A stretch of 37,202 bases of DNA. Source: a virus. Under the pieces are notes generated by a model. The model saw only the letters and a program-made list of their open reading frames with translations. It was not told the DNA's origin and searched no databases. The stretch is taken from positions 1-37,202 of IMG/VR virus record IMGVR_UViG_3300012936_000056; one strand, written 5' to 3'. Each line of letters opens with the position of its first letter. Position 1 is the first letter of the stretch. The translations under genes were made by a program, and so were the position numbers. This document shows, one piece after another, positions 5,251 through 34,626 of this stretch.

Positions 5251-5818
5251 TATTTATTACGATACCAGCTTTACAAATTACATATGCGTCAGCTATATCA
5301 TAACAAAATTTTTCAAATTTTACACGACCTTTATTTGGCCCTCGCGAAATAATTTTTGTAGCCCAATTATAACCCCCTAGATCTTTATCGACCCACTCCA
5401 TAATTTGTTCTTTTTTATCCTTGTCACTGTTTTTATCTATTTTGATTCCTAATGATTTCCTAGCTGTATTAACATTAATAAAAACAGGCTTAATTTTGGT
5501 AATCCTAAATACTATGTTTGATACTATTCCATTAAATCTTGCTAACTGCATCAAAGTTCTTGCTGAAGACATTCCTCTACTAAAACTTTGCAAAGTATCT
5601 TCTATATAGATGTTATCTATTAAAATTTCATTATCTAAAATATCTTTCAATATTAGAGATATAAAATCTTCTTCAAACTTCTTTGATTTGTCAAACATGC
5701 ACTTCGTCTTTGTCAAGTCAACATGTTTTAATTTTTGAAGTTTATTGTCTAAAAAAAGAGACATACCTACAATAGATGTTGATACGTCTAATCCAATACT
5801 ATATTTTTGTTTTTCCAT
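5243..5818 (-). CDS. RuvC-like Holliday-junction resolvase
   Basis: This is a 191-residue RNase-H-fold nuclease predicted to cut four-way DNA junctions. The four acidic positions are visible: D11 in IGLDVSTS (strand 1), E73 in NIYIEDTLQ, and D174 and D177 in CYDIADAY. A basic DKDKKEQI stretch at 132-139 resembles the family's DNA-contacting region. Length is close to bacterial RuvC (about 170 residues). T4 uses the unrelated endonuclease VII (gp49) for debranching before packaging, so this enzyme may fill that job here. Start and upstream stop overlap as TAATG with the 1042-residue structural gene, and there is no good ribosome site of its own, so reinitiation is likely. It is the first DNA-metabolism gene after the structural block. 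Other RNase-H-like nucleases are a less likely alternative. Confidence 0.85.
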   Translation of the reverse strand: MEKQKYSIGLDVSTSIVGMSLFLDNKLQKLKHVDLTKTKCMFDKSKKFEEDFISLILKDILDNEILIDNIYIEDTLQSFSRGMSSARTLMQLARFNGIVSNIVFRITKIKPVFINVNTARKSLGIKIDKNSDKDKKEQIMEWVDKDLGGYNWATKIISRGPNKGRVKFEKFCYDIADAYVICKAGIVINNE

Positions 5819-8800
5819 TAATAGTCCATTTTTAGTCTAAAGAGAATAGAGTCTGAAAGCTTTTTGGGCGCTGGTCTTGCTAATTTAGCTTTTGCAACAA
5901 TATTCAGATTCTCATCGTGTAAGTTTATATCTGTAATATAAACAAAACTTTCTTCAGAGTTAAATGCACTTTCATCATGTCTTAAATCTTCATTATAAGA
6001 TTTATTTGAAGACTTATCAAACAAACCTTTTCTAGCAGGAATATTTATTTCATTAACGTATAAATAGGAGTTTGAGAAAAAGTTACAGCTAAAGTCATCT
6101 TCACCAAAATATACTAATTCTGGTCTATTTAAAGAAGCAATACCATCTTTATAAAAGATATGACCAACATAATTCCAAGAAGCTACTTTAGTTTTACAAT
6201 TATCTCTATACAACCCTCCATTTTTATTATCACTAAATTTTAAATTAATATTTCCATTTGAAGTACTTACATTATCATCTAAGATTTCAAATGTATCTTT
6301 TTTAATATTTTTATTGTAAAATTTACTAGGTATGTCAAAAATAGTAGTAAAGATACTATCATAATCTTTATTAATAACTGAATATGGTACGGGTAATCTT
6401 AGAAATTGTATTTGTGTATTTTTATATTCAAGAGATTCAGTATGACTATTATCAGTACTACTTCTATTTACAAGATCTGATATGCTTTCTTTATAATGTC
6501 TAAGAATTGGGTTGCTAAAAGATATTTGATATATTTCTTTACATTCTTGTTCTAAATTAAGAACTCTTAATTTTTCATCACTAGTATAATTATTTAAGTT
6601 TATATCTTGTCTATCAAGATCAATTTCAGAAACATTTGTTATTATATTATCATGAAATATAAAATTGCTGTAATTAAATAGTTTATCTTTAGAAATATTT
6701 GGTGTAACGTTTATGTTTTCAAGTCCTACATCAAAAATTGTAGCTAAATCAGAAACTTCTCCATTATCATCAACGTTAAAGAAGTCTTCAAAAAAACTTT
6801 GAATAGTATCTATATCTTGTTCATTATAGTTTAAAAAATTTGGATTTTTAACTAAAACATTAATATTATCATCTATGTCTAATAGTCTTTCTGGAGTTAT
6901 ATTGTTTGATCTAGAGTTATCTAAGTTCCAACTATAATTATAATTCTTATTTTTATGAATATTTTCAACAGTTATGTTAAAATTTAAAGTTTCATTAAAA
7001 AGACTATCGTCCAATTTTATGCTATTATTTGAATATTCATTAATTATACTGTTTATTGGCTCAAAATAAACATCTTGAATGCCATTGTCATTAGGAAGTA
7101 TTAAAAGATTTCTATAAGAAATATTGCTATTTATATTGATTAATCTATTACTGTGACTACTATCTTTTAAATTTTTGTTATAAATAGACTTTTGTAATAT
7201 ACCTGTTTTTATATCATTATGATCATCTGTATATGATAAAAGAGAAGAATTAGAAATACTAAAAAAATCTCTATAAATATAATCTTCTTCTTTTCCTCCA
7301 ATAACAATATTAGGTTTTGTATGCTTTATAAAATCAGTCAAATAATTTTCAGATGAAACTTCTAATCCTCCACAAGTATTTGCAAGAAAAGGATTGAAAA
7401 TACAAGAATATCTGAGATTTATTTTAGTAGCATTAGCATTAAAAGAACCTCTTTTTTTAATAAAATAAGGTACATAAAAAACAGGAACGTAAAATTCAAT
7501 ATTTTCTTCTAATTCAATATCTTCAATTGTTTTGTTACATATATTGTTATTTATAAAATCAACGTTTAATACATCTGAATATATTCTAATATCATGTATT
7601 TCTCCATGGAAAGATTCTGAATTACTATTTACTCTATTTTCAAAAGTTATATTTCCAGTATAATTCGGGTCAGATGTCAATATTTGACCATCATCTTGCC
7701 ATTCATTTTCTTTTCCTAGGGATATATCTTTGTCAAATTCTCTAGCAAAAATTTGGTAAAAAACATGTGAATAGTTAACATTATTGCCATAAATAGGACG
7801 ATTACCTAGACATATAAAACTATTTCCAGTATAATTTTCTCTATTTTCAACAATTTCAGTTTCAAATAACTTTACTCCATCTATAAAAAATCCTAAATTA
7901 ACTTGATTGTTCTGATTTTTAAAATAATTTAAACTTAAGTTATACCACCTATTATTTAAAATGTTTAAAACAGAAGAAAGATAAAGGCCTTCTATGTCAT
8001 CTTTTACAACATCTGTGACTAAATCATTTAAAGTTAGATAACTTTTTAAGTTATTTTTTGTTTTTTCTCCTAAAGTAATACCAATTCGATGTTTTAAAGA
8101 AGAAGTGTTTCTTATTATATAAATTGATATTACATTTGGAACGTGAAAAATACATTCTGGATTTGATTCTGATGAATAATTTTTCCTTAAATTAAAATAC
8201 AAGCTCAGATTAAAAGAATTTCTATTTATAAAGTTGTATTGATTTTCACCATTACTTTTTATTGTATTTGGCCAAATAATACAATTACTATGATTTAAAT
8301 TATTATCAAATCTTTGTGAAAAGAAATTAATTGAGTTCCAATTACAGTATCCATAATTTAAATCATTGTAGAAATCAAGCGAGTAGTCTTTTTTATAGTC
8401 TCCATATAATCTATTCTTTACGTAATTCTTTTTTTGCAAACTAAAACTATCTGGTAAAAAATGTTGTTCTATTCTGTCAATTTTGTAGCTATTTCTAAAC
8501 AAAAAGCTTTTAATGTCACTGTTATTAACTGTATAATTTACAATATCTTGATATTGATTTCCATTAAATGATCTATAGTTTTCTATTTTATCTTGATACT
8601 CTTTTCTTTTTGTAAAATAATTCTGAGTATTAACATTTGAAGGAATAGGATCATCAGGAGTTATAATGCTATAACTTTCATAAAAATGATCATTTTCACT
8701 TATATACGTGTACAAGTTTTTTAAGTCTACTCTTTTTAATGCAATACTTAAATCAGATTCATTACCGTTTAAGTTAAGTTCACTTGTAGAAAAATTTCTA

Positions 8801-8946
8801 TAGCTATTTATATTAATTAAACTTTTAGAGTCTATGTTTTGGTCGTAAATATATGTTGTAGGATCAGAATTTTTGTATTCTACTTTTAGTAAACTTTCTA
8901 CTTTGTTTTTAACAAAATTTTTGTGTGTTAAAGGTATGAAAGTCAT
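5818..8946 (-). CDS. Large Asn-rich structural protein with LamG-like domain and tail-type C-terminal module
   Basis: This 1042-residue protein is about 14% Asn over its first 220 residues by hand count. A LamG/concanavalin-A-like sandwich covers about residues 240-470. Its typical elements are RWYNLSLNYF (333-342), GFFIDGVKLFE (352-362), ICLGNRP (378-384) and the closing strand GEIHDIRIYSDVL (448-460). LamG folds often bind glycans. The C-terminus (about 965-1042) matches that of the next upstream gene, the 541-residue protein: an IPARKGLF segment, then VYITDINLHDENLNIVAKAK and a final FRLKMDY. I saw no signal peptide or membrane helix. It is probably a virion surface or baseplate-associated fibre protein that takes part in attachment. 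Ribosome site AAGGA. It overlaps the resolvase start by one base. The precise virion location is unknown. Confidence 0.8.
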   Translation of the reverse strand: MTFIPLTHKNFVKNKVESLLKVEYKNSDPTTYIYDQNIDSKSLININSYRNFSTSELNLNGNESDLSIALKRVDLKNLYTYISENDHFYESYSIITPDDPIPSNVNTQNYFTKRKEYQDKIENYRSFNGNQYQDIVNYTVNNSDIKSFLFRNSYKIDRIEQHFLPDSFSLQKKNYVKNRLYGDYKKDYSLDFYNDLNYGYCNWNSINFFSQRFDNNLNHSNCIIWPNTIKSNGENQYNFINRNSFNLSLYFNLRKNYSSESNPECIFHVPNVISIYIIRNTSSLKHRIGITLGEKTKNNLKSYLTLNDLVTDVVKDDIEGLYLSSVLNILNNRWYNLSLNYFKNQNNQVNLGFFIDGVKLFETEIVENRENYTGNSFICLGNRPIYGNNVNYSHVFYQIFAREFDKDISLGKENEWQDDGQILTSDPNYTGNITFENRVNSNSESFHGEIHDIRIYSDVLNVDFINNNICNKTIEDIELEENIEFYVPVFYVPYFIKKRGSFNANATKINLRYSCIFNPFLANTCGGLEVSSENYLTDFIKHTKPNIVIGGKEEDYIYRDFFSISNSSLLSYTDDHNDIKTGILQKSIYNKNLKDSSHSNRLININSNISYRNLLILPNDNGIQDVYFEPINSIINEYSNNSIKLDDSLFNETLNFNITVENIHKNKNYNYSWNLDNSRSNNITPERLLDIDDNINVLVKNPNFLNYNEQDIDTIQSFFEDFFNVDDNGEVSDLATIFDVGLENINVTPNISKDKLFNYSNFIFHDNIITNVSEIDLDRQDINLNNYTSDEKLRVLNLEQECKEIYQISFSNPILRHYKESISDLVNRSSTDNSHTESLEYKNTQIQFLRLPVPYSVINKDYDSIFTTIFDIPSKFYNKNIKKDTFEILDDNVSTSNGNINLKFSDNKNGGLYRDNCKTKVASWNYVGHIFYKDGIASLNRPELVYFGEDDFSCNFFSNSYLYVNEINIPARKGLFDKSSNKSYNEDLRHDESAFNSEESFVYITDINLHDENLNIVAKAKLARPAPKKLSDSILFRLKMDY

Positions 8947-8955
8947 ACTTTTTCC

Positions 8956-10581
8956 TTAGTAATCAAGTCTTATTCTAATTGATAAGTCAGTTTCAGGATT
9001 TTTCTCTATAGGTCTTGATGTTTTTGCAACAGCTAACAAATCTCCGTTTGCATCATATAAACCAACAGTAGTTACAAAACAAAAAGGCTCTTCTCCATTA
9101 AGCGCAATAATTTCACCATCACTATTTGTATAAGATGGATTTGTGGAATAATTTAATTGTGAAGGTGCTGCTCTACAAAATATTAAAGATGAATTAATCG
9201 CGGTTTCATTTCTAAAAGCAATAGAAGAAGACTGATCTCTTCCAAATCTTGTATCACATAAATGATCAATAACACCATCTATTGTTCCACTTGTCCATAA
9301 ACTAGGATAAAGCTTTCCGTTATGTAAAGTTACTCCATCAATTTCTTCAAAAGTAGTTTGATCATAGTATGCATCTCTTTGTGCAGAAGTCATTTGACTC
9401 CAAATAGGATATAAACCAGATGCAGGTGGATTATCACCACCTGCTACATCATTAATTTGATTATCACCATCAGCATGATACCAAACAGACATTATTTCAG
9501 TGCTAGCATCATCTTTAACAGCTATAAAACTTTGAAATTCTACTCTTGTGTTTCCTGTATCATCTAATTTGTAAACAGGATAGTACCATTTTTCCTCACC
9601 TGCATTTTGACCATCTTTTCTACCAAAAATCGCAAAAGGACCATTTACGTCGAAAGATAAATTTGTTCTTCTTGTTGAAGTTATTTCTCCTCTAATGTAT
9701 TGATCTGGATCAAAAGTTCTTTCAACATCTAAGATTATAATTCCACTATCATAAAAAATTAAACCAACGTGACTTCCTGAAGAGTCTGTTAAAGTTGATA
9801 TTTCCCCAGAAACTGGACTTACTGTAGTATTTGTAGCAGATAAAACGTCGGTAATTAAAGTTTGTGCTGTGTTTGCTGAATTTGCAATTGTAATTTCTTC
9901 TGTAAGATTTGTTGTACTTGATCCTACTTGATTATCATTTGCAACGTCTATAAATTCCGAAAACAGTCTGTTAGCGTTTTTATAAATCTTAAGACCAAAA
10001 GATCCTTTTCTAATGTTGTCTCTTGTAAACAAACGTCTAAAGCAAAGAAAAATAGCACCTCTAATTTTTTTTGAAGTTGTTCCTGACTTCTTTTGATCAT
10101 CTGTAATATCTGCAGCTTCTGCAGTTACGTCATGTGGTAGAAAAAAAGTAGAATCTGCGTCGCCTAAAAGATTTTGAGCAAATTGTTTATAAATACTTAC
10201 TTTTTCTCTCATCATAGGTAGTTTTGCAGAATCTGTAAAAATTAATTTACCACCACCGTCTTCAGTTGGATTTAAATTATTTACTGTGATTGTATTACCA
10301 TCAGCACTTTTTTCCATTAAAGAACCAATTGTAACGTCAAATAGAGGGTTTGAAGTTCCTAAATTAAATTCTTGATCGTGTACAGTTTGAAAAAGAGAAC
10401 TAGTAAAAGTTTGTTGATCTACACCGCCACTTGTAAAAACTTCATAAGATTTTCTTGTATTTGAACTAACACTAGCAATATCAGATTGTACAACATCCAC
10501 AAGTTGCTGGACTGATGTTTTTGATGTATTAATGTTACTTTGATCTATTGTTATAAAAGATCCTGTTAATTGATTTGCCAT
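8956..10581 (-). CDS. Conserved phage structural protein (baseplate/tail type), 541 residues
   Basis: This protein is much less Asn-rich than most of its neighbours (about 7% over the first 200 residues) and richer in Gly, Ala and Thr. Its architecture resembles, from memory, a structural protein family of marine T4-like phages. It has an N-terminal segment with SLFQTVHDQEFNLGTSNPLF (62-81), a REKVSIYKQFAQNLLGD stretch (125-141), a GAIFLCFRRLFTRDNI motif (175-190), then a C-terminal module (462-541) with NYSTNPSY, TTVGLYDANGDLLAVAK and IRIRLDY at the very end. That last module recurs in the 1042-residue protein downstream. No catalytic motif is visible. Strong AAAGGTAA ribosome site. The better-conserved composition suggests a core particle role rather than a variable fibre. 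Exact role is not known to me. Confidence 0.8.
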   Translation of the reverse strand: MANQLTGSFITIDQSNINTSKTSVQQLVDVVQSDIASVSSNTRKSYEVFTSGGVDQQTFTSSLFQTVHDQEFNLGTSNPLFDVTIGSLMEKSADGNTITVNNLNPTEDGGGKLIFTDSAKLPMMREKVSIYKQFAQNLLGDADSTFFLPHDVTAEAADITDDQKKSGTTSKKIRGAIFLCFRRLFTRDNIRKGSFGLKIYKNANRLFSEFIDVANDNQVGSSTTNLTEEITIANSANTAQTLITDVLSATNTTVSPVSGEISTLTDSSGSHVGLIFYDSGIIILDVERTFDPDQYIRGEITSTRRTNLSFDVNGPFAIFGRKDGQNAGEEKWYYPVYKLDDTGNTRVEFQSFIAVKDDASTEIMSVWYHADGDNQINDVAGGDNPPASGLYPIWSQMTSAQRDAYYDQTTFEEIDGVTLHNGKLYPSLWTSGTIDGVIDHLCDTRFGRDQSSSIAFRNETAINSSLIFCRAAPSQLNYSTNPSYTNSDGEIIALNGEEPFCFVTTVGLYDANGDLLAVAKTSRPIEKNPETDLSIRIRLDY

Positions 10582-10599
10582 ATTTTAAATTACCTTTAA

Positions 10600-11346
10600 T
10601 TAAGTATTTGGTTGAGAAATTTGTATTGGAATTACAATAGAAGCACCAGATGATTCTCCAATAACTTGAATTGAAGTATTTATTCTATTTGCATTACCTA
10701 TTGTTGAAAACTTTGCAAAAGAATTAGAAGTTACAACTCCATAAGATTTAATTGTAAATTCTGCACTTTTTTGATTTAACCAAGCTCCGTTAGTTTCATT
10801 TGCTGTAGAAACTTCATAAGTTTTAATACCATTTAAATCAGTATCAATAAAAGTAGCACTTGTATTTCCAGTAATATCTAATAAAGCTCCATGTAACTTA
10901 ATTATAAAAATATCATCCGTAATGTTTGGGTTGAGTGTCGAATTAGCATCGATAGTAGTTAAGAAATTTTTAATCTTAACAGTAACTTCAGAATCTTGCG
11001 CATCGTCAGAGTTTGTAAGTGTAATTGCAGTTGTTAAACCATCATCTCTAACTAATTTAGGTAATTCATTAATTCTTGTTAAAGGATTAGGGAAAGAAAT
11101 AATTGGATGTTTTATTGCAATATTTTCATTAGGATTAGCTTCAAATACAGGAGTATTTTTAATAATTTTTTCTTTGCCTATTGTAAGTCCATATTTTGTA
11201 AGTAGCGAATAATCAATTTCATCATCTCCAAACGAAAAAGCTTCAATACTAAAAGATCCGTTATTTTTAGATAAAAGCTCACGTCCTCGCTCAGTTAGAA
11301 CTGCATCAATAATAATATTGTTTGTTGCGTGATTTAAAAATCCCAT
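10600..11346 (-). CDS. Structural protein with conserved N-terminal 'VLTERGR' module, 248 residues
   Basis: The N-terminus IIIDAVLTERGRELLSKN followed by SFGDDEIDY (to about residue 46) is a pattern I associate with virion structural proteins of T4-like marine phages. The rest is beta-rich and Thr/Asn/Ser-rich, ending in IVIPIQISQPNT, without catalytic motifs, signal peptide or membrane helix. The same N-terminal pattern occurs in the 356-residue protein at 20301-21371, so the two probably share a fold and possibly a docking surface. The gene lies 18 bases before the 541-residue gene and likely works with it. Its ribosome site AAAGGTA is about 12 bases from the ATG, and its core is complementary to ACCTTT upstream in the gap, so translation might be modulated. 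The identity of the virion part is not established. Confidence 0.78.
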   Translation of the reverse strand: MGFLNHATNNIIIDAVLTERGRELLSKNNGSFSIEAFSFGDDEIDYSLLTKYGLTIGKEKIIKNTPVFEANPNENIAIKHPIISFPNPLTRINELPKLVRDDGLTTAITLTNSDDAQDSEVTVKIKNFLTTIDANSTLNPNITDDIFIIKLHGALLDITGNTSATFIDTDLNGIKTYEVSTANETNGAWLNQKSAEFTIKSYGVVTSNSFAKFSTIGNANRINTSIQVIGESSGASIVIPIQISQPNT

Positions 11347-11357
11347 TTTTAAGTAAT

Positions 11358-11398
11358 ACCTTTCTTTTTAATAAATATAACTTATTCTATTTAAAGGT
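11358..11398 (-). promoter_or_regulatory. Possible hairpin covering the ribosome site of the 248-residue gene
   Basis: In the 58-base gap, the mRNA-sense strand has ACCTTT (11398-11393) and the complementary AAAGGT (11363-11358), which is the core of the ribosome site. Between them lies an inner stem AATAA/TTATT (11386-11382 with 11374-11370) around a 7-base loop, separated by a symmetric 6 by 6 internal loop. The stem is AU-rich and may be weak, so this is a candidate only. Confidence 0.3.
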
Positions 11399-11404
11399 TA
11401 AATT

Positions 11405-13027
11405 TTATTCTTCAAACTCAAACCCATTTATATTTATTTCATTGCTTAATTTTTGTCCATTTTCTAAACTAAATATTCCTAATTTATAATTACCTTTTAA
11501 TAATTTTATATAAGTTTCGTCTTTTTCAAAAGAAAAACATTCAGGTGTAGCAAAAACACTTATTTTTTTAACTTTTTCTTCAAAAGGTGTATTACTAACT
11601 ATATAATCATCATTATTAAAAAACTTAGTTTTTCTAGGTAAAAGTAAATTTGGCATATGCAAAGGTGCACCAGCTTTACTTACAGTATCAATTATGCATT
11701 TTCTTTGTTTACTATCAAAAACTACAGCTATCTGTGTTCCATAGTTTGAAGTAAAACCTCTTGCATCTATTGAACATATTGTGTATATTTGTATTATTTC
11801 TTTTTTAAAATCTTTATCAATAAAAACAGTTTTATGATTATCAACTTTTTCTACGATATCATCATCGACTTGAACATTTCTTTCATAAAGATCAAAACTG
11901 CTATGAAATTCAATTTGATGTATAATCTTGTAAGGATTTTCTAAACTATCTCTTTTGAAAATTTGATATCCTTTTATATCACCTTGCATGTCAACAGGCT
12001 TGTTCCACTTTATTCTTAAATTGTCATTAATTAAATCAATTTTCATAAAAGAAGGTGCTTCAGGTCTTATAGTTTCTTTACACTCTATTTGATCTGTAAT
12101 GTAAGGATAGTCACAAACTAAAAAAGTATCTATAGTATTATAGTCATTTTTGCTTGGTATCGACATTAAAAACGTAGGGTATATTATGTAAAAATAAGTA
12201 CTTCCATAAACCACATTATTGTCTTTGATTACTAATCTATCGTTTATTTTATAAATATTAGTTGATGTAGATGATTCTTCTCTTTCATTACTTTTAAAAA
12301 AAGATGAAGATTTAAAAACCGGTTCATCTAGAATTTCATCAATTTTATATTTTTCTACTAAATGACCTACATATTTATAATAACATGTATCAAAACCAAA
12401 CATTGAGTGTCTTTGAAAAGGCACAAAATTTTCTGTAATTCTAATTTCAGATTGATCTCTATTTACACCGTCTTGCTCATTTTTCTGCAGCAAGTTTTCA
12501 AAAATATTAATAGATTGTGTTAAGTCTTGAGTAAAAAAAACACTGTTGTTGTTATTTTCATAAAAATTATCTTTTATGACTTTGTTTATACTAGCTTTAT
12601 GATTTAACTTCATAAAATCAACAGCTTCAGAAAAATCACTACTCTGAATATTGAAAAAATTATTAATTTTATTAATTTCTTTATCCTTTTTGTCAAAAAC
12701 TACATCAATATAATCTTTGTTTCTATCATGTAGTTTGTTAAAAAAATTTAAATTATTATTATCAAGTGTTAAAGGATAAGTCAAGCTATTTAAGTCAATT
12801 AAATTAATAAAATTAATTAAATTATTATATCTTGTATGTTTATTTCTATCATATTTTGCTTTTGTTGTAATATCTAACTCAATAAATCTTGTAGGATTAA
12901 TGTTATTATTAATAATTTTAACATCTTTACCAGGTTCAGACTCATTACTTTCATAGAAATTGTATATAAATCTTTCATTTACGTTTGTTGAAAAGTCTGT
13001 GCTATTTAAAAAATCAAAATTAATCAT
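11405..13027 (-). CDS. Structural protein with fibronectin-III-like domain, 540 residues
   Basis: The first 200 residues are Asn/Asp-rich, probably partly helical, and unrecognised. From about residue 321 to 437 there is a fibronectin-type-III-like sandwich. It begins RPEAPSF, continues LRIKWNKPVDMQGDIKGYQI (337-356) with FKRD, and closes with IIQIYTICSIDARGFTSNYG (411-430). The tail has SKAGAPLHMPNLLLPR (450-465). I associate this FN3 plus 'GAP-x-PN' arrangement with tail or baseplate proteins of large phages; the association is from memory. FN3 domains in phage tails often help particles bind cell-surface material weakly. The ATG at 13027 has AAGGTAA upstream, 4 bases after the 1602-residue gene, so the two are tightly co-translated. 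No enzyme motif is seen. Confidence 0.75.
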   Translation of the reverse strand: MINFDFLNSTDFSTNVNERFIYNFYESNESEPGKDVKIINNNINPTRFIELDITTKAKYDRNKHTRYNNLINFINLIDLNSLTYPLTLDNNNLNFFNKLHDRNKDYIDVVFDKKDKEINKINNFFNIQSSDFSEAVDFMKLNHKASINKVIKDNFYENNNNSVFFTQDLTQSINIFENLLQKNEQDGVNRDQSEIRITENFVPFQRHSMFGFDTCYYKYVGHLVEKYKIDEILDEPVFKSSSFFKSNEREESSTSTNIYKINDRLVIKDNNVVYGSTYFYIIYPTFLMSIPSKNDYNTIDTFLVCDYPYITDQIECKETIRPEAPSFMKIDLINDNLRIKWNKPVDMQGDIKGYQIFKRDSLENPYKIIHQIEFHSSFDLYERNVQVDDDIVEKVDNHKTVFIDKDFKKEIIQIYTICSIDARGFTSNYGTQIAVVFDSKQRKCIIDTVSKAGAPLHMPNLLLPRKTKFFNNDDYIVSNTPFEEKVKKISVFATPECFSFEKDETYIKLLKGNYKLGIFSLENGQKLSNEININGFEFEE

Positions 13028-13031
13028 TTTA

Positions 13032-17856: not shown

Positions 17857-17907
17857 AAAGATTAGTTATATGCATATAAATATAATCTATAAGTTTTTAT
17901 AATCTTT
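17857..17907 (-). promoter_or_regulatory. Inverted repeats upstream of the 1602-residue gene
   Basis: The 66-base gap 17841-17906 is the longest in the window. It contains 8-base complementary arms, AAAGATTA at 17857-17864 and TAATCTTT at 17900-17907, that enclose a perfect 14-base palindrome TTATATGCATATAA (17866-17879). The structure sits directly before the GAAGGTAA ribosome site of the 1602-residue gene. It lacks a following T-run, so it is not a typical terminator. It could be a 5' leader hairpin, an RNA-processing site or a protein-binding dyad. Chance is possible given the AT content. Confidence 0.35.
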
Positions 17908-20300: not shown

Positions 20301-21371
20301 TTATTCTATTACAATTGTAAACATACATATAAATGAAAAATATGCTGATAGTGCGAAAGTATTGTTTCCTTCTAAATTAACTTGTCCGTTATTAAAGTTA
20401 AATAATACATCAAGATCTGATGCATCATCTCTTGTGTTTATAATTTTACCTACAAGATAAACTTTTTTTACAGTAAGTGTAGATTTATCATAAAATTTTC
20501 CAATTTTTATAAAATGAAGTTTTTGCAAAGTTTTAGAGTTATCATCTTTTTCATGCATTTCAAACAATAAACCATTAAAATCAGATATTTTTTCTACTTC
20601 GTAAACTTTTTTTTGTATATTTTGATTATTATTTAAACTTCTTACTAAACTTAAAATTTCTTCTTCCCTAGATTGAAAATTGCTTGTATCTAAAGATTTA
20701 TAGCTAGTTAACAAAAAACCTACACTATTTTCTTCATCTAAATCATCAATGTTTTTAAAATTTTCTCTTTCATATATTTCAATTCCATCATTGTTAATAG
20801 GAGGCATTAACATAAAGTTTTTTTTGTGAGAAAATCTTTTATCTAAAGCAATAGTTTTAAGATCCTCCTTGTTCAATTTTGTTTCTCTTATCGTATCATA
20901 AGTGTTTACGTTATTAAAATTAAGTGTATTGTTTAGAAAACCATTATCTATAAATTTAATATCAACAGAGTTATTTACAAAGCTTTTTGTTGTTAAGTAT
21001 TTTAAGTTTTTTAAATTTTGTCCTAAAGAAAAATTTGTAAAATATTCTTCAACTTTATCGTCAAAAGAGATGTTTTTCGTATTTCTAGATATTACATTGT
21101 TGTCGTTTAAAAAATATTCTTTAATATCAAATTCTGGATTTATTAAGTCATTTACTTTAGTGTTAGTTTCTAAAGGAATATAGTCAATTTCAGCTTTAGA
21201 TACATCACTTTTTTTTAATTTTGACAAATCGTGATCTTTTGTATAAATAATTGATTTATCACTAATTGTTGCGTATTTATATCTAATGTCCCCGTTTTGA
21301 ATTTGCGACCTACCATTTTCTGTAATAACAAAATCAATAATTCTACTTTTTTTGTTTAATATTCCTGACAT
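20301..21371 (-). CDS. Structural protein with the same N-terminal module as the 248-residue protein, 356 residues
   Basis: The N-terminus ILNKKSRIIDFVITENGRSQ followed by NGDIRYKYATISDKSIIY (to about residue 45) parallels that of the 248-residue protein: I-I-D-x-V-[LI]-T-E-x-G-R, then a Gly/Asp-containing strand and a D-x-I-x-Y end. The remainder is Asn/Asp/Lys-rich. Recognisable short patterns are NFMLMPPINNDGI (about 195-207) and a C-terminal strand FALSAYFSFICMFTIVIE, hydrophobic enough to resemble a membrane segment but more likely a buried strand, because it is short and terminal. The ribosome site is weak (GAAAG). It lies 38 bases after the 2245-residue gene. A paired or repeated position with the 248-residue protein in the particle is plausible. 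Function is otherwise unknown. Confidence 0.72.
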   Translation of the reverse strand: MSGILNKKSRIIDFVITENGRSQIQNGDIRYKYATISDKSIIYTKDHDLSKLKKSDVSKAEIDYIPLETNTKVNDLINPEFDIKEYFLNDNNVISRNTKNISFDDKVEEYFTNFSLGQNLKNLKYLTTKSFVNNSVDIKFIDNGFLNNTLNFNNVNTYDTIRETKLNKEDLKTIALDKRFSHKKNFMLMPPINNDGIEIYERENFKNIDDLDEENSVGFLLTSYKSLDTSNFQSREEEILSLVRSLNNNQNIQKKVYEVEKISDFNGLLFEMHEKDDNSKTLQKLHFIKIGKFYDKSTLTVKKVYLVGKIINTRDDASDLDVLFNFNNGQVNLEGNNTFALSAYFSFICMFTIVIE

Positions 21372-27400: not shown

Positions 27401-28147
27401 TATATGATTAGGTGTGCTTATTATTTTTGATTTGTCAAGTCTGAATTGATTTTTAATAAATTCTTGATCTTCTGAAATTGCATTTTCGCTTAATATATTA
27501 GAGTCAGTAGTAATATAAAAGTTATTATTTACACTTCCACTTAAAGATTTTAAAGGAAAACCAACTTCGTGTGATACGTTTTTATTTCCAAACTCAATTA
27601 AATTAAATTCTTCAAAAGGGTCTTTGAAGCTTTGCAATAATTTTCCAGTAGTAATTTTTGAAGATGGAAATACACCTTCACTGTAACTAATTTCATCAAG
27701 TCTTTTTTTAATTGATTTACCTAGTCTTCCTGACATTTCTGGTTTTGCACCAATTTTATATAATGTTATTGAATCATAGTCAGAGTTTATAATATTGTAC
27801 GGTAACTGAGGAAATTCTCCTTTAATTGTAAAAATAATGATTTTATTTGCACTATAGCTAGAAACATTTAATGACTCAATACTGAAAGTTACAGGAAGAC
27901 TATAATTATAAGCTCCAAGATCATTAGACTTAAATACTTTTTTTAAATAAAAATTTACAAACCCTGGCTTTATATCTTTTAATTTTATGCTATTGTGAAG
28001 TATAAAATTGTTTCTATTTGAAGCATCTACTTCAACATCAAAAGTCATAAAATATTTGTTTGTTCCATCATTTTGTAAAACTGTTTCTTTTACAATATTT
28101 AAAATATTACCAAGGAAAATATTGTTATTTTTCAAATTATTTTTCAT
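21410..28147 (-). CDS. Giant multidomain structural protein, 2245 residues
   Basis: This is the largest gene in the window, a single frame of 2245 residues, generally Asn/Ser/Asp-rich and beta-rich. Recognisable patches: a segment at about 518-560 with SYGFPWKATW and the strand SKYISKDFLLEKVVFKGVYS (541-560); a less Asn-rich segment at about 893-1183 with two strongly hydrophobic stretches, HAIIVMVMFYSPYLGLG and SGIANVFALTFILLENNL; then SYLLKPHDKLVVGIS and DKLEITLIGRDYIDD; and a C-terminus with GFKYGVLSGN and TNRFGHFADMDYGSSSYATV. Similar short patterns occur, from memory, in big structural proteins of marine phages, but I cannot name a function. No signal peptide is seen. Its ATG overlaps the previous stop as TAATG, suggesting coupled synthesis with the 343-residue protein. 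It is probably a baseplate-periphery or fibre component. Confidence 0.75.
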   Translation of the reverse strand: MKNNLKNNNIFLGNILNIVKETVLQNDGTNKYFMTFDVEVDASNRNNFILHNSIKLKDIKPGFVNFYLKKVFKSNDLGAYNYSLPVTFSIESLNVSSYSANKIIIFTIKGEFPQLPYNIINSDYDSITLYKIGAKPEMSGRLGKSIKKRLDEISYSEGVFPSSKITTGKLLQSFKDPFEEFNLIEFGNKNVSHEVGFPLKSLSGSVNNNFYITTDSNILSENAISEDQEFIKNQFRLDKSKIISTPNHIDNTFLIQRNINSNSLDEVIIQNRFKEEYQAYDESQYLHTEDVSQSFYNTTYDAENKTDYNLGKQKQIKIVLDFSGNNNDGNESIDLNLLNTKFVFNKPNASSTKSQFRFDLSDDLDDTTLTNRDNLVNTNFFNFMKDTNYSVSSHFMPTAYWDFNKGEWNYLQGIKESSSLYNGILGISNYVKNPDNAVESDNFPEFGERKEYTDIFNDIMFASDDTLLVNDIIRLNEENRNIIHFSKPLLTTPGMRNDNSILSSSSGLQLNKTPLSQISDSYGFPWKATWQPHNNHQLDMSKYISKDFLLEKVVFKGVYSSRGEMPVRIGNYSSGYLKETGNFPDSTLFRSHYNMKDDNTNCISNNITFFLLNERQNQNYLSNKIEVQPLQHYNFLLTNDSQETINNNNIYSNTGVKLSNFLGNFETYEEYQNKLKVKSYIVPSKSLYNLDEFNNIKSNSSTVFNLYYFKNNDNTNISYNPTKIGSFNKSNFFKLTRADSAAVGQIDKIYENHVNDTWENAGNTNTNLLSGNTYEKYKIFSSYSEDLDLNRSRDLVSYSNLLITSKKTSLQLDDQLLTNIDNHIVQEKDEDNLNINIDKQSFKVESYCKNQNFSNYTDESEYKIKSNYFENVTVSPEIESSFEIRSSYNKNTPELFQLSNASGSDGTAITDIMGIDVSGNNIPHTVPIFSFTLSYAQSTLVETHIKFSYKNPVGLSNRDTFASQDKTLNINQFIEKTTQSYQAAGPFGLMITRHRNIFDINLRLFDTYDNKSSFSDLINKLIFSSNSDETVFNFENSYFQAIKANASGITFETGDGNKWSDFTPEEKNLALHAIIVMVMFYSPYLGLGQQVKDTSGNLIDVQFPSNSFTLQTKSDSPFTSRINFLVSDWSIFNASNPSQDFLITDTSTGGNISYPNNVLISGIANVFALTFILLENNLNSAVIEQESYYNQSYNLEGKYLGESNGLGIVSDRIIDKSPISNQDLPTYKTKSGKLLQSGNSKNPTINSSYLLKPHDKLVVGISSNANGQVMPTVFKLHDKLEITLIGRDYIDDVQYKNNESKSITKTIIGDDFIEKSGASIYQTKGSYFDQVWDLNDVNESLDEFILGKNLIGLNSSKEFGTYSGFITSTQETSSIDKTIYLKDTINPSIGFIYKRCLGKSETNGIDFRDVDDNGISSNKIIFTENFTDAEISDYNLNFSNSLVNNWHNTYHLEEFKNILNNINNIIVNDKSVSYIDSGSESLKTFIYFDVDSYTVDYSEETKIHLQSNNEDSASSNVSRSNANLYKIYERYLSIKDFVLPNSSLDKFQNGLQIQNFESFISQNDSEIGLDFSNQQEFHNFIISNKNISKFNSSRSNFSNLSLQYFDSNLNLDEYCNDIKENSNVFSPQWHLVFELNSLEFTSLTSNLDENSKLNLREGSILDVFIFESSDSTIDQAVCKIAKITRIEDNFYQLAIPLYFWETLEIPQSYFGVDNNIVYGRYESRTNEAQYSTTPAWYAKLNDNTSIIDNPNVYDLFVIDGKTSDYESDPNLDILPVSLSENESRFYINGSLRSYPWKISEIDAIDIGNDGNTNEAIKEKIKLSSKSLFLCLAKFSNNTNSELTPDINFLNPNTKDLNNYYLLNKNSLTFIHKKYLENNKQLIDNRIEQILAPNNTLQKLNEKVYRSKIYKKKFNKFVKTNSYLVYKVHKMYVNTDGITSLVFDENNPHDPANPRNDYNIIEIIAFDSDNISTKKDFVSTKSPCFEIENNDIIRIYEESLKENYKINENINSETPYFEINLSSNTSPLTIGSVSNKQFKQIPYSNLSIKKNLLIEIGDNDNDFSTIQKNFSQIYSNDLIAKSNKKAEDIRRFGTPLFEIKQNPEGYRNINSQEDTMKNFLYGFSKGKFRYPILNLDGFKYGVLSGNKNSRKFHFKTNRFGHFADMDYGSSSYATVETGTGGEVIVNYPIVKQYLGQGYSYVEESNTTQTYNTDIYARSYYPYIENPNDALSQLNQSHPNYNADINF

Positions 28148-29178
28148 TAATCACCATCTCTTAAAAATGCAAATGAATCAGGCATTCCGCCATTAGAGTT
28201 GTCTAGGTCGAAACCAGAAGATACATGAATTAAATCTTCATCATGATCTGAATCTATTAAGATTAATTCTTTCGTATCATCAAATGGAGGGATTAAAGAT
28301 TCCTCTTCATTATAAAAAATAATCTTATTAGTAAATTGTGGTATTGTGCTAGTAGCATTTTCAGATGTATCAAAAATTGTGTAGATTTGTCCATTTATTG
28401 TGACTTGAGAATATCTAAAAGATCTTTGTAATAATTCTTCATTGTTAACTATGATATCCTCATCTTCCTCATCTAAAAAGCTTTCTGTTTTAAAAATTGA
28501 CTTTTTGTTTTCGTTAATTTTTATATCGTTTAAACTAAAAAAGTTAGATAAAAAAACTTGTTTATCTCTTGAAAACACACTTCCTGAACCTGTCATTAAG
28601 TCAGCCTTAATGCCTCTTAAAGATTTTTCAGTATTAATATCACCGTTAATTTGATCTAAATGCCCAAATACACAAATGTTTGAATTTAATCTTAATATTG
28701 AATATGCATTAAAATATCTAGGGTACTTAATTTCATGAGGCATTAAAAGAAACTCGTTAATATCTTCAATACTTTCAACATCTTCAAAAGGTTCATCGTC
28801 TAAGTTATCAAATATAGGATCAGCATTTCTTTGACCATATGAATTCTTAATTTTATATGGATTTTCAAAAGTAGAAATATTATTTCCAGAATAATTTTTA
28901 TCATCGTTATAAGGAGTAAAAATATGTGTTTGTATTTCTTGATCTTTTTTATAAAAGCTACTATTCATGATATTGTTAAAACCAAAATCTGAGTCAAATC
29001 CTACAAACACAGTTCCTTTTCGGAGTGTATCATTTGTAAATCCTTCCCTATCTAGAATTAATCTTTCATTTGGGTGCAAAAAGTCTTTATTTTTAGCTAA
29101 AAATTCAATATCACTTTTACAAGAAACATCTCGTTCATTTACATCAAAAAAGACAATTCTTTCATCTAACTCTAACAT
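28147..29178 (-). CDS. Acidic structural-type protein of unknown function, 343 residues
   Basis: I do not recognise this 343-residue protein. It is rich in Asp, Glu, Asn and Phe, with clusters such as NLDDEPFEDVESIEDINEF (124-142), FLDEEDEDIIVNNEELL and DSDHDEDLIH, so it is strongly acidic. Between them lies a probably folded beta segment (YSILRLNSNICVFGHLDQ). A role binding metal ions or a basic partner would fit the charge but is not shown. The ATG at 29178 has AAAGG upstream. Its stop overlaps the start of the 2245-residue gene by one base, a strong sign that the two products are made together and may assemble with each other. Confidence 0.68.
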   Translation of the reverse strand: MLELDERIVFFDVNERDVSCKSDIEFLAKNKDFLHPNERLILDREGFTNDTLRKGTVFVGFDSDFGFNNIMNSSFYKKDQEIQTHIFTPYNDDKNYSGNNISTFENPYKIKNSYGQRNADPIFDNLDDEPFEDVESIEDINEFLLMPHEIKYPRYFNAYSILRLNSNICVFGHLDQINGDINTEKSLRGIKADLMTGSGSVFSRDKQVFLSNFFSLNDIKINENKKSIFKTESFLDEEDEDIIVNNEELLQRSFRYSQVTINGQIYTIFDTSENATSTIPQFTNKIIFYNEEESLIPPFDDTKELILIDSDHDEDLIHVSSGFDLDNSNGGMPDSFAFLRDGD

Positions 29179-29193
29179 GTTCAGCCTTTCAGT

Positions 29194-32100
29194 TTATTGT
29201 CTATCTAAATTATAAGAATTACTTCGTCTCGAATATAAATTTTTTCTAGAAAAATCATATTGGTCTTCTTGACTTACTATTGTATTTATACTATCTTTAT
29301 TTTTGTGCTCGTATTTATGTCTTTCTAAAATATGAGACTCATATACAAAGTTAAACCCTTCAAAACTTACGTTACTTGGTACTATATCAAAAAGAACAGA
29401 CGACATAATATTATCAAAATATTTAAAAACATTACCTAACGACGCATAATTGATAAGCACTCTGTCACTAAACTTTGAAAAGTACTCTTCTCTTAAGTTA
29501 TCAATAAACTTATATTGATATTCAAATTTATTTGAAAAACTTTTTATTTTTATGTTAAAATCATTTAAGTCAGAAATTATGTTTTCAATATCATCATTTA
29601 TAGCTTTTGTTATTGACATGTCAATAGAAACTCTATTTGCAGTATCATATACATATTCATTAGGTACTTCGTGCGCCGGAAATATATTGAAATTGTTTTC
29701 TTGATTTTTGTTTTCATCTTCACTAAAGCTTACTATATTAAATTTATTAGACTTAGCGCTTTCATCAATTTTCATGCTTTTTTTCTTAAGAGACAAGACA
29801 TTAGTTTGAATTATGTTATTGCTTAGTTGATTGCCTAAGTAGTTATAAACATTACAGGCATTCAAATTAACAAAGTTGCTGTTAAATTTAATTAAATTAT
29901 TTGAGTTATCTTCTAATTTCCAATAGTAAGAACCTTCGTTATCAAGTCTAAAGCGCTCATCATCTTTAACACAAAAATCAAATATTAAATGTTTTAAAGG
30001 ATTATAAGTAGAAGTTCCTATGTTTTCAATATCGTTCGAATGCGAAACAATTTCAGATTTAGAAAGATTTTTCTTCCAAAGTCTAATATTGTAAATTTCT
30101 CCTTCGAATTCACCGTGAATAAGACTACTATCATTTTCCGAATAAAAGTCGACATTTGTGTTTTCACTGCTTTTATAAGATCCTTTTCCTATTTTAATAT
30201 TTTGAATATCATTTAAATTATTTTGTATATCAATAGATAAACTTTTTTCAAATATACTTTCATTGTTTAATATATTTTTATTGCCTAAGTCTATTAAAGA
30301 TGCATAATATGTATTACTGCTACCATCTCTACTTTGTGTCAAAACAAAATATTTTTCACAATTGAATAAATCAACATTTTCAAGTATAATTTTATAAACA
30401 GTATCATTAGATAAAGCATTTGATTTTGGCTGAATGTATACTGTAATATCGCCTTTAAAAAGATTAGGATCATTTTCTACATATTCTACTAAAATAAAAT
30501 CCTTTATTGAAAGTAAAGTTTGTTTTTTATTGTAATTTTTACCTGTCATTGATAAGAATTTTTGATTTAGTTTAGTCTTATGCAAAGCATTTTTTTTATT
30601 AATAATATCTTTAAAATTAAAAAATAACTCAACAGACCAATTATCTCCTACACCTGCTTCTAAAGTATTTTGTGTTGAATTGCTTTTACTTTGATCTAAA
30701 CTTTTTGATCTAATGTTATCAATAATAAGTAATAGTTGACTGTTTGGAATATTATAATTATTAGTTTGTCCAATATTTTTATCTAAAGCAAAACTTTCGT
30801 CATTTGTCATTAAGTTAACATTATTACCAAAATTAACATAGTTCTTTTTTATGTTTTTAATAATAAAATTTTGACTTTCTTTAATGTGATTAAAAGTAGA
30901 ATATTCTCTAATATTTATTAGCTTTTTACTTTCTATACCAAAAGAATTAAAGGCAGAGTGTATACTGTTTATTGTACCTTTTGATTTTAAAAAATCTTGT
31001 GTATTTATTAAAAATCTTTGCCAGAGTAAATTTTGTATTTTTCTAATGCTCAAATCAGAAAGTATATCTTCATAGTTCAGGTTTTTATTATTTAATTTTT
31101 CTTTACTTGGTGAAGATAAGATTTCTTTAAACTTAATGCCATACATTTTACATAGAATTGGAATCTGCATGCTAATTATTTTTTTATTGTTAATTGCATC
31201 ATAATCAACATTTAATAAGTTTGTAATTGAAGATATATAAAGCTTTAATTTATCAAAAAATCTAGCCCATATTAAAACAATATTTACTAAATCATTATTA
31301 GCAGGTACTGGTAAGTTTAAGTTACTTTTGTTGCTTATATTATTATTTAATATAGCTATTTCACTTGGTAAATTATAAGCTTCATCGTTACTATAAACAG
31401 GTAAATTTTGAATTTCTGAAGAATTTAAAAAATAATGTTTTGGCATTAAATTAAAAATTAAACTTGGATTATTAGCATCATATTTTTTTGCTAAATTTAT
31501 AAGTTGATCTCTAAGCTGAGTTGTTATTGTATATGCAGAATTTAAAACAGGTGAATCACTTTTGTTTTCTAAAACAAGTGGTGTATTTTCATTAACTTTA
31601 TTTAAAGATGTATCAGATTTTATATTTAACACATTATTATTTATTTCATAAAAAACACCATGAAGCTTGTTACCAGAATAATCTATACACAAACAGCTGT
31701 TTGTATAGTCTCCTCCAGGTTCATTAAGCCTTAAATAAAGTTTAAGACCTCTCTGAGAGAATATATTACTATTCATTTCTTTTTTAATGGTCTTGTAACT
31801 TCTAATCTTGTGAAAAAATCTAAATTCATCTATAGAACCTACAAACCCGTTCATGTTTTGTCCATCATGTAAAACTGAAGTGATTATTGATTCATTGTCA
31901 AGTACAAATATTTTTCCTAATGAAAAAGGTGCTTTATTATTAAAGCTATTAGAAAACTGATTTGAATTTAAATTTTGATTTGCGTGATCATCAAATATTT
32001 CACTTACAATATTACCATTTACAACAAAAGAAATTGCTTTTCTTTGAGTAATACTAATATTTATGTTTTGAAAAACTTCTGTGTTTATTAGAATTTTTTT

Positions 32101-32826
32101 ATTAATAAAATTTTTATTTATATAAATTGAAAAATTTAAAAAGCAGGTACTTGTTTCTACACCATTTTTAGTTATATAACAAATAAAGCCGTTATCAACC
32201 TTGTCTTCAGCGTTTTCTGTATAAACATTTATTTTTGAAAATACAGTTTGATAATCTATTATTGTATTTGTTGCAGTAAGTTCTGGCTTTATCCAAAAAT
32301 CAAAAGAAAAACTTTTTTCAACCGGATTTAAAATGTTTCTATTTCTATTTTTTGTATCATTTAAAATTTTTCCTTGTTCGTCATATACAACTACAATATC
32401 GTTCTGATTAAACTTTGCATAACCTGTTGATGTTGGATAAACATTTTTTAATAAATAATTTGTATATCCATCCATTCTATTAAAAAACTTAATATTTTCA
32501 ACTTGATTTTTATCATATGGAACATTTTGAATTTGCTCAAAAGCATATGATACTTTACTTACTGCAGAGTCAAAAACAATATGATTTTTAAATTCAGAGT
32601 AGTCAATATTTTCTAATTGTTGCGTTGTAAATAAACCTTCGTAGTCATCAATTCTTTGAAAAATTATTGACAAATCTTCTTTACTAAGCTTTTCTGGATC
32701 AATAATATTTAAGTTATCAAAAAGTTTATTTAGGCTATCTTTATTGACACTTGTAGCTGCATAGTTATAGCTTCTGTCAACAAAAGAATTTAAACTATCA
32801 TTATCTTTTGCTTGCTTAGCAATCAT
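29194..32826 (-). CDS. Baseplate/tail-type protein with two LamG-like domains, 1210 residues
   Basis: Residues about 170-345 form a first LamG-like sandwich: KSFSFDFWIKPEL at the start, AISFVVNGNIVSEIF in the middle and FVGSIDEFRFFHKI at the end. A helical region (about 430-640) includes LWQRFLINTQDFLKSKG (601-617) and AFNSFGIESKKLINIREY. Residues about 727-935 form a second LamG-like domain (WSVELFFNF to GEFEGEIYNIRLWKKNLS). The C-terminal part has DIVPSNVSFEGFNFVYESH and ILERHKY. From memory, the 'KGT...GI...EY' helices and the 'P-x-x-V-x-F-x-G-x-NF' end occur together in large tail or baseplate proteins of other phages. LamG folds suggest glycan or protein binding. The gene directly abuts the 599-residue gene (AAGGA ribosome site inside it). 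A receptor-facing baseplate component is my best guess. Confidence 0.78.
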   Translation of the reverse strand: MIAKQAKDNDSLNSFVDRSYNYAATSVNKDSLNKLFDNLNIIDPEKLSKEDLSIIFQRIDDYEGLFTTQQLENIDYSEFKNHIVFDSAVSKVSYAFEQIQNVPYDKNQVENIKFFNRMDGYTNYLLKNVYPTSTGYAKFNQNDIVVVYDEQGKILNDTKNRNRNILNPVEKSFSFDFWIKPELTATNTIIDYQTVFSKINVYTENAEDKVDNGFICYITKNGVETSTCFLNFSIYINKNFINKKILINTEVFQNINISITQRKAISFVVNGNIVSEIFDDHANQNLNSNQFSNSFNNKAPFSLGKIFVLDNESIITSVLHDGQNMNGFVGSIDEFRFFHKIRSYKTIKKEMNSNIFSQRGLKLYLRLNEPGGDYTNSCLCIDYSGNKLHGVFYEINNNVLNIKSDTSLNKVNENTPLVLENKSDSPVLNSAYTITTQLRDQLINLAKKYDANNPSLIFNLMPKHYFLNSSEIQNLPVYSNDEAYNLPSEIAILNNNISNKSNLNLPVPANNDLVNIVLIWARFFDKLKLYISSITNLLNVDYDAINNKKIISMQIPILCKMYGIKFKEILSSPSKEKLNNKNLNYEDILSDLSIRKIQNLLWQRFLINTQDFLKSKGTINSIHSAFNSFGIESKKLINIREYSTFNHIKESQNFIIKNIKKNYVNFGNNVNLMTNDESFALDKNIGQTNNYNIPNSQLLLIIDNIRSKSLDQSKSNSTQNTLEAGVGDNWSVELFFNFKDIINKKNALHKTKLNQKFLSMTGKNYNKKQTLLSIKDFILVEYVENDPNLFKGDITVYIQPKSNALSNDTVYKIILENVDLFNCEKYFVLTQSRDGSSNTYYASLIDLGNKNILNNESIFEKSLSIDIQNNLNDIQNIKIGKGSYKSSENTNVDFYSENDSSLIHGEFEGEIYNIRLWKKNLSKSEIVSHSNDIENIGTSTYNPLKHLIFDFCVKDDERFRLDNEGSYYWKLEDNSNNLIKFNSNFVNLNACNVYNYLGNQLSNNIIQTNVLSLKKKSMKIDESAKSNKFNIVSFSEDENKNQENNFNIFPAHEVPNEYVYDTANRVSIDMSITKAINDDIENIISDLNDFNIKIKSFSNKFEYQYKFIDNLREEYFSKFSDRVLINYASLGNVFKYFDNIMSSVLFDIVPSNVSFEGFNFVYESHILERHKYEHKNKDSINTIVSQEDQYDFSRKNLYSRRSNSYNLDRQ

Positions 32827-34626
32827 TTAAATTATCCTTACTGAGTATTTTTCATTGAAAATATATTTTTCATTATCTGTGACAATGTCTTTATATTTAA
32901 ACTTAAAATTAATTCTTCTATCTTTAAATATTTTAGGAATAAAAACGTCAAATACATATTTTTCACCATCAAAAAACATTAAAGTTGCTGAGTTATCATA
33001 ATCTACAATAACTTTATTTGTTTCTACATCATATATTTGATAATGTACATTGCCTAAATTCTCACTAGGTAGTTCATAAGGCACCTTTACGGCATCAAAT
33101 TCTTTGCGTGTATCAGTAAAATAAACTTTTAAAGATGTTACAGAGTTATCACTACTTATAAAATTTTCATCTATTTTTATTACTGATATAAGGTTTTCAA
33201 AGTCAAAACTTTCTTGAGTCTCACTGATTACAAAATCAACTCTTTGAGTTTTAACTGTTTTAATATTTGTTCCGTCATCTGTCCAATACCAGACATAATT
33301 TGCTTCTAGCTTATTGTTTTTAATTAAGCTGCTTATATTATCTTCAAATTTGCTTACATTGACTGTTGCTTTAAAAATACCTGATAATTGTTGTCCTCTA
33401 AGATTTGTTATGTTTGAAGAAGCATCAACAGGAGTTATTAAGTCAGTATCATTATCTTTGTTTGTTATTTTAAACTTTAAAGTATCTAAACCTGCAGGGT
33501 TTGCAAAATTAGAAAGTTGTCCATTAACTTTATTAAACAAATAAAAACTTTCATTATTGTTTAAAAATCTTATTTTATTAAAAGAACTAATAGGAATATG
33601 ATAACTTGAATCATTTATTTTTATTCTAAGTTCTGGTACTAGTTTTTTATTTGTTAAGTGTCTACTTCCTAGTCTTTTAGCAAAATAAGATTTATTATTA
33701 AATAAAAATTCATTTGTAAGTTTTATCAAAAAACCTTTGTCAGTTGTATTTACAAGTTGTTGCTTAATATAGTCTGTTACGTTTAAAACAATATCTTCGT
33801 TTCCTTTTTCTACATAAAAGTCTGAACTTATTGAATCTGCATCAGCTTGAGTTATAATTCCTGGTATTTCCCAAATGTTATTTGTGCTACTGTCCAAGTT
33901 TGTAAAATTACAAGGACCTTTATCAGAAAAATATATTGTATCTTTACCAATTCCTTCATCAAAATCTTTTAGCATTTTTAAGGCTTCAACTCTAAACTCT
34001 TTTGGTTTAGTTATGCCAGTATTTACATCTTTTAATACAATCTCTGCTTGCAAATTTTCAAAAGAACCTTGTAAAGCACCAGCATCGCTTAAAGTTATCC
34101 ATTCGCTTTTAAAGTTAGATATGTCAAATTTAACTAAGCATGCACTGTAATCTATTCTTGCAAAAGAAGATAAATTATATGAATGTGTCATGTTTGTAGG
34201 TAAAGTAAAAGACGTATCACCTGATGAACCAGATTTTTTCTGTTTTAAAACAAGTGTATTATTTGAATCTACATATGCATTTATTGCAAAGTCACTTTCA
34301 GCTTCAATTGCGGCTTTAATTAAGGATGCTTCGTTACCATTGTTTGATCCAACAATAGCTATATTGTTATTTAAAACACTGTCATTATTGTCAAATTCAA
34401 ATGTTTTAGTAACGCCATTTGCATCTTTTAATACTAAAACTTGACCATCTTCAATGCTATTACTAAATTGAAATATTGCCCAAGAATTAGCAAATTTATT
34501 TTCATTGTAAAGTTTAAATAAATCTAAAGTTGCTGCATTTCCAGAATTTGCCTCGATACCTTTGTTTTCTCGAGTATTTATATTTGTAACGTAAGCATCT
34601 TTTTGAGGTTCTAATATAATAATCAT
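32827..34626 (-). CDS. Structural protein with split DNRLRE-like domain, 599 residues
   Basis: The N-terminus PQKDAYVTN (7-15) and AATLDLFKLYNE (31-42), resuming at SACLVKFDISNFK (161-173), then DIVLNVTDYIKQQL and the SRHLTNKKLVPELRIKIND strand, resembles DNRLRE-like beta domains found in phage virion proteins and cell-surface proteins. Between 42 and about 160 an extra module is inserted: GQVLVLKDANGVTKTFEFDN (61-80), ASLIKAAIEAESDFAINAY and LKQKKSGSSGDTSFTLP. I associate such modules with variable insertions in marine phage proteins. The C-terminal third is beta-rich, with possible immunoglobulin-like segments ending KYSVRII. Ribosome site AAGGA. It is 9 bases downstream of the gp6-like gene and directly upstream of the double-LamG gene. 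Probably a baseplate-attached fibre or adaptor. Confidence 0.72.
   Translation of the reverse strand: MIIILEPQKDAYVTNINTRENKGIEANSGNAATLDLFKLYNENKFANSWAIFQFSNSIEDGQVLVLKDANGVTKTFEFDNNDSVLNNNIAIVGSNNGNEASLIKAAIEAESDFAINAYVDSNNTLVLKQKKSGSSGDTSFTLPTNMTHSYNLSSFARIDYSACLVKFDISNFKSEWITLSDAGALQGSFENLQAEIVLKDVNTGITKPKEFRVEALKMLKDFDEGIGKDTIYFSDKGPCNFTNLDSSTNNIWEIPGIITQADADSISSDFYVEKGNEDIVLNVTDYIKQQLVNTTDKGFLIKLTNEFLFNNKSYFAKRLGSRHLTNKKLVPELRIKINDSSYHIPISSFNKIRFLNNNESFYLFNKVNGQLSNFANPAGLDTLKFKITNKDNDTDLITPVDASSNITNLRGQQLSGIFKATVNVSKFEDNISSLIKNNKLEANYVWYWTDDGTNIKTVKTQRVDFVISETQESFDFENLISVIKIDENFISSDNSVTSLKVYFTDTRKEFDAVKVPYELPSENLGNVHYQIYDVETNKVIVDYDNSATLMFFDGEKYVFDVFIPKIFKDRRINFKFKYKDIVTDNEKYIFNEKYSVRII

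Follow-up and report, generated by a model that had tools for sequence, protein, structure and literature searches.

The genes for gp6, gp7, gp8, gp9, gp10, gp11 and gp12 of phage T4 occupy the same position (PMC3004832) as the eleven-gene block that we describe here, and both this T4 series and the P2 series V-W-J-I-H resemble the block in having a gp25/gp6 wedge core, a gene at the gp7/gpI position, and then genes for periphery and fibres. Compared with T4 gp7-gp12, however, the block has about three times more coding, and for T4 and P2 sequence homology is demonstrated for gp25, gp6 and a short tail-collar motif of P2 gpH alone. The block lies in a viral record of 37,202 bases, which has no further genome behind it and was analysed as a whole (the window); its proteins are named here by their length in residues.

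Among the cultured phages of the phage collection, those with a relative of gp6 are Flavobacterium phage vB_FspM_immuto_3-5A (MW353176; immuto) and Microcystis phage Mel-JY01 (PP395634). In immuto, gp25 and gp6 are followed by homologues of p599, p1210, p248 and the C-terminal module of p541, and annotated tail fiber and tail spike genes come next. It differs in having one 403-aa gene between its p1210 and p248 homologues, and no resolvase, primase and SbcCD genes directly after its block. Mel-JY01 and LR756508 (484 kb) carry homologues of p599, p1210 and p248 and several p541-module genes, after which primase and SbcC(D) follow, together with a RuvC-like gene in LR756508; Mel-JY01 departs from the window in its five tandem module genes, and in a GIY-YIG gene at the position of the resolvase. 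What all three lack is a six-gene insert of p343, p2245, p356, p793, p1602 and p540, of which p356 alone has relatives there, by way of its paralogue p248.

The Far-T4 phages, which have Rhodothermus phage RM378 as their cultured reference (PMC4360716), are common in lakes and oceans and show high turnover (PMC4360716, PMC13037479), and their marine members are predicted to have Bacteroidetes and Flavobacteriales as hosts (PMC7198788, PMC13037479). RM378 keeps the p248-p541 gene pair, whereas no homologue of gp25, gp6, p1210 or the insert was detected in it with the profiles used. Capsid, portal, gp21, terminase, sheath and tube proteins of the window's relatives match those of RM378, the capsid in relatives G001 and G002 (E 1e-71 and 3.7e-68), and portal, terminase and gp21 in G001-G003; the window itself contributes a terminase fragment only. 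Judging by these RM378-like genes in related contigs, the window would lie near the Far-T4 phages. A reading as a tailocin or eCIS was dropped, as the relatives carry capsid, portal and terminase genes.

Layout and flanks of the block

A sequence-only reading of the window had described eleven consecutive genes between a gp6-like gene and a resolvase, with 9,519 residues in total, and the ORF list and the sum of the lengths agree with this (Table 1). The identities it had given to the flanking genes held as well, the RuvC-like resolvase matching phrog_159 at E 5.3e-8. The gp25-like and gp6-like genes belong to the same gene string as the block, with Pfam scores for Baseplate_J and GPW_gp25 below the cut-offs. 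That the genes overlap or nearly abut is borne out by intergenic gaps of -1 to 66 nt, but the sole overlap inside the block is one of 1 nt between p343 and p2245; p1042 and the resolvase also overlap by 1 nt. A high Asn/Ser/Asp content had been pointed out too, and this is indeed raised, albeit modestly, at 25-32% versus 22-26% in the flanking SbcCD, primase, RuvC, gp6 and gp25, a level consistent with the GC content near 25%. Most gene starts in the block are preceded by a purine-rich stretch. While TATAAATA sites are enriched (25 versus a shuffle mean of 14.7), a single one falls in the gaps of the block, on the wrong strand, and promoters and terminators are at chance level.

Table 1. Features of the window, with positions counted from its first base
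Feature	Position	Strand	Basis
Eleven-gene block (599, 1210, 343, 2245, 356, 793, 1602, 540, 248, 541, 1042 aa)	5818-34626	all minus	
gp25-like baseplate wedge protein	36493..37080	-	phrog_261 E 1.4e-5; PF04965 E 1.6e-4, below the curated cut-off
gp6/Baseplate_J-like wedge protein	34636..36480	-	phrog_6 E 6.5e-16; homologues in immuto, Mel-JY01, LR756508
p599, wedge-associated, directly after gp6	32827..34626	-	family profile and conserved order
p1210, probable scaffold at the gp7/gpI position, two LamG-type domains (133-404, 660-1013)	29194..32826	-	PF13385 and fold match
p343, clade-specific	28147..29178	-	orthologues in the same slot
p2245, clade-specific giant, conserved core ~430-640	21410..28147	-	core in slot proteins
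p356, p248 paralogue, putative adaptor	20301..21371	-	iterated p356 and p248 profiles converge
p793, clade-specific, fastest-evolving, C-terminus shorter than in orthologues	17907..20288	-	orthologue alignment
p1602, clade-specific giant, conserved at ~911-1489	13032..17840	-	hhalign 99.6% to a divergent slot group
p540, clade-specific, one FnIII domain at ~311-368	11405..13027	-	titin FnIII match, E 1.3e-7
p248, putative small adaptor before the fibre-type genes	10600..11346	-	homologues in other phages
p541, fibre-type, C-terminal tail-collar-like module ~450-541	8956..10581	-	module in genes of other phages
p1042, fibre-type, C-terminal module in common with p541	5818..8946	-	PF13385, sub-threshold, E 8.7e-4
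Fused SbcD-SbcC, 1041 aa	1160-4285	-	metallophosphatase domain at 3-187; SbcC Walker B at 945-1001
123-aa protein	507-878	-	69-85% identity in relatives

Downstream, the block is followed by the resolvase, a primase, SbcD and SbcC fused in one gene, a conserved gene of small size and part of a terminase gene. The fusion, a single ORF in the window, is present in most relatives, while LR756508 (L020) and L060 have separate genes. The small gene, between SbcCD and the terminase large subunit, encodes the 123-aa protein, for which its position allows a guess at a small terminase subunit.

Gene order in uncultivated relatives

Relatives were gathered from IMG/VR contigs with gp6, p1210, p541 and p356 as baits; single-sequence searches for related loci with p2245 and with p1602 found none. 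Three divergent viral contigs, of 73.8, 133 and 49 kb, carry the full series gp25-gp6-599-1210-343-2245-356-793-1602-540-248-541-1042-RuvC-primase-SbcCD-123aa-terminase-portal, in identical order and with similar gene sizes. When the loci were joined on a shared identical stretch of 200 bases in a sampled comparison, 61 clusters resulted, and each canonical neighbour pair is present in 7 to 40 of these. Non-canonical neighbours are forward skips only, where the protein in the slot has diverged below detection, and among the plus-strand matches of the 61 clusters there was no inversion of order. As such, the neighbourhood comparison that the sequence-only reading had proposed came out clearly in favour of a kept eleven-gene order, complete in three contigs and in parts across the clusters. 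With gene lengths and gene order both conserved in other contigs, chance ORFs are ruled out, and the block is genuine, its order being kept in dozens of uncultivated aquatic phages related to T4.

A marine MAG contig that was binned as Halobacteriovorax (L115, PBIO01000013.1, 109 kb) shows this order too, beginning with p356, and its gp6 stands further upstream. This is probably a phage contig, and its host label may come from the binning.

Conservation is uneven along the block. By mean column identity, p541 (65%) and p1042 (64%) rank at the top, and p343 (38%), p793 (40%), p1602 (43%) and p2245 (44%) at the bottom, although the ranking is rough, since the alignments differ in membership.

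Proteins of the block and its insert

Against PHROGs and Pfam none of the eleven proteins gave a match above curated cut-offs, with weak ones below these, and a DNA-level search of phages found no match. Searches of phages by tblastn returned nothing for p1210, p2245, p356, p1602 and p540, and PDB profile searches gave no credible match for p599, the p2245 core, p248, p541, p1042 or the C-terminal module of the latter two. Profile comparisons show that six of the eleven are homologous to genes of the baseplate and fibre regions of other phages, p356 through its paralogue p248 only.

In immuto and LR756508 the gene next to gp6 is matched by the family profile of p599, that of Mel-JY01 being reached by hhalign at 91%, and the place of p599 in the order is kept in 17 clusters. 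Homologues of p1210, of 1265-1400 aa, are present in immuto, Mel-JY01 and LR756508, and PF13385 is found in seven of nine p1210 orthologues (best E 2.6e-8). In its model, residues 133-404 match a LamG/pentraxin (concanavalin-like) sandwich with a Z of 18.2 and an rmsd of 3.1 over 199 aligned residues, and the second LamG-type domain reaches a Z of 13.7; helical segments lie between and after these domains, where the model is poor, with low confidence. Direct comparisons of p1210 with T4 gp7 and with P2 gpI were not significant. Tail_P2_I matches the LR756508 homologue only, at a sub-threshold E of 0.024 and in the equivalent helical segment, and this match, together with the place of p1210 as second after gp6, suggests a gp7/gpI role. 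Probably, then, p1210 takes the gp7/gpI position as a helical scaffold with two LamG-type sandwiches.

Between p1210 and p248, the insert amounts to 5,879 residues, or 5,523 if p356 is left aside. It is known only from uncultivated relatives, so that about half of the block, including several giant proteins, is without counterpart in the phage records searched. Neither a recognised structural domain (PHROGs, Pfam) nor an enzymatic or regulatory domain was found in p2245, p1602, p793 and p343, and a scan of p2245 orthologues was likewise negative for the former. For p343 there is no match in the phage records, and distant proteins of its slot are joined to the family by hhalign at 94%. The p2245 core of about 210 residues recurs in 23 slot proteins of 741-2494 aa, some of which are cut by the ends of their loci. 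The p793 of the window is 19-28% identical to its orthologues, which run to about 1000 aa, and lacks some 200 C-terminal residues that these possess, after which a 66-nt gap leads to p1602; distant proteins of the p793 slot could not be joined to its family. In 49 loci p540 is present, and p356 orthologues occur in about 32.

Homologues of p248 are located at the same relative place in immuto, Mel-JY01, LR756508 and RM378, and p248 and p356 belong to a single family whose N-terminal stretch is strongly conserved. The C-terminal half of p248 is predicted to form an Ig-like sandwich (model pLDDT 71.5; top viral match of 205 aa). Its p53-like Foldseek matches, with their low TM-scores, were taken to reflect a generic Ig-like fold. 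It was also considered whether its N-terminus might be the first half of the P2 gpH collar domain, an idea rejected because 21 of 100 shuffles scored equally well.

The C-terminal module of p541 is also present in genes of immuto, Mel-JY01, LR756508 and RM378. A profile of the p541/p1042 module aligns by hhalign with the N-terminal collar domain of P2 gpH over 23 columns, a score that none of 100 shuffles reached, and PF12571 is matched by three of 15 module members (best E 0.073). Since the module is C-terminal in p541 and p1042 and N-terminal in P2 gpH, these proteins were not filed as members of PF12571. In Mel-JY01, all five tandem genes (L019:28987-37933; 357, 352, 954, 718 and 591 aa) end in a p541-type module, as if several fibres shared one docking part.

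Reading of the block and its alternatives

So what kind of structure does the block encode? The sequence-only reading had taken it for an undescribed, oversized baseplate-periphery or attachment machine. A large multi-protein module, conserved in order, is still the best reading, but smaller homologous blocks exist in immuto, Mel-JY01 and LR756508, and the homologues of p599, p1210, p248 and p541/p1042 that follow gp6 there place the block in a known kind, the wedge-periphery and fibre region of a contractile tail. We consider it likely that it is the outer baseplate and host-attachment fibre operon of a Far-T4-like relative of T4 with a contractile tail, and that a clade-specific insert has enlarged it, in which case its proteins would be part of the virion and its genes transcribed together. 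Further points in favour are the LamG folds of p1210, the FnIII domain of p540, the tail-collar motif in p541 and p1042, and the RM378-like head and tail genes of the relatives. The undescribed part is the middle insert, p343 to p540. More tentatively, p343, p2245, p793, p1602 and p540, with p356, may amount to an attachment or baseplate-periphery apparatus not described before, its folds differing from those of T4 gp8-gp12, that a widespread aquatic Far-T4-like group shares and the cultured relatives searched lack; any function of the first five we infer throughout.

In such an operon, the gp25-like and gp6-like proteins would form the wedge core with p1210, whose scaffold p599 and p343 would decorate. 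The paralogous p356 and p248 may act as small adaptors, p541 and p1042 would be fibre or spike proteins held by their tail-collar-like module, and each wedge would be surrounded by a large periphery, or pin-and-fibre layer, built from p2245, p793, p1602 and p540. By analogy with T4 gp7-gp12 (PMC3004832), binding to a surface glycan would move the periphery and thereby set off contraction of the sheath, an analogy drawn from gene position and from the homology of six proteins to baseplate and fibre-region genes of other phages.

Rather unlikely, in our view, is that p343 to p540 are the equivalents of T4 gp8, gp9, gp10, gp11, gp12 and fibritin, diverged and grown beyond recognition, which would leave a T4 wedge and short-fibre operon with nothing new in kind. 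The position is the same and the order broadly parallel, with gp6, gp7 (1032 aa), gp8 (334 aa) and then gp9-gp12 in T4, and p343 follows the gene at the gp7 position as gp8 does. No profile of gp7-gp12 or fibritin matches within the block, but this test has little power, since the same comparison barely detects T4 gp6, against which the gp6 family reaches only 2.7%. Size also argues against equivalence, with 2245, 1602 and 793 aa as compared to at most 602 aa for gp8-gp12, and so do the smaller phage blocks, which are entirely without genes p343 to p540. That same absence would fit a mosaic, in which wedge genes (p599, p1210) and fibre genes (p248, p541, p1042) flank the genes of another component of the virion, for instance neck whiskers, head fibres or a tail decoration, the more so as T4 fibritin adjoins the T4 baseplate genes. 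We find this improbable, however, because many divergent contigs have the insert at a fixed place between these two sets of genes, with its internal order kept, and this suggests that it works together with them. Even less probable is that some proteins of the insert are foreign to the virion, being secreted or acting in the infected cell: although no structural domain was recognised in p2245, p1602, p793 and p343, no enzymatic or regulatory one was found in them either, the genes form a tight string between structural homologues, and the length and Asn/Ser-rich make-up of the products suit structural proteins.

Returning to the operon of outer baseplate and attachment fibres, the status of p541 and p1042 as the best-conserved proteins of the block is unusual for receptor-binding parts and counts against the fibre reading. 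Other points against the operon reading are the C-terminal place of the tail-collar motif, the lack of a significant match of p1210 to T4 gp7 or P2 gpI, and the absence of any gp8-gp12 homologue in a comparison that barely detects T4 gp6. If host recognition drives fast change, p793 and the giants would be better candidates for receptor contact than the fibre-type proteins, and it is these that the comparison suggests as the fastest-changing parts. The block offers a concrete, order-conserved candidate for the missing host-attachment machinery of Far-T4 phages, and indicates which genes to search for in virions.

Outside the block, G002 (133 kb) has two adjacent oversized tail-sheath-like genes (L036:11227-14538, 1103 aa, and L036:14583-19142, 1519 aa), both with matches to the sheath of RM378 and to the Pfam domain of the sheath C-terminus. 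The same relative carries a glycosyltransferase gene (L023:955-2184) a few genes upstream of gp25.
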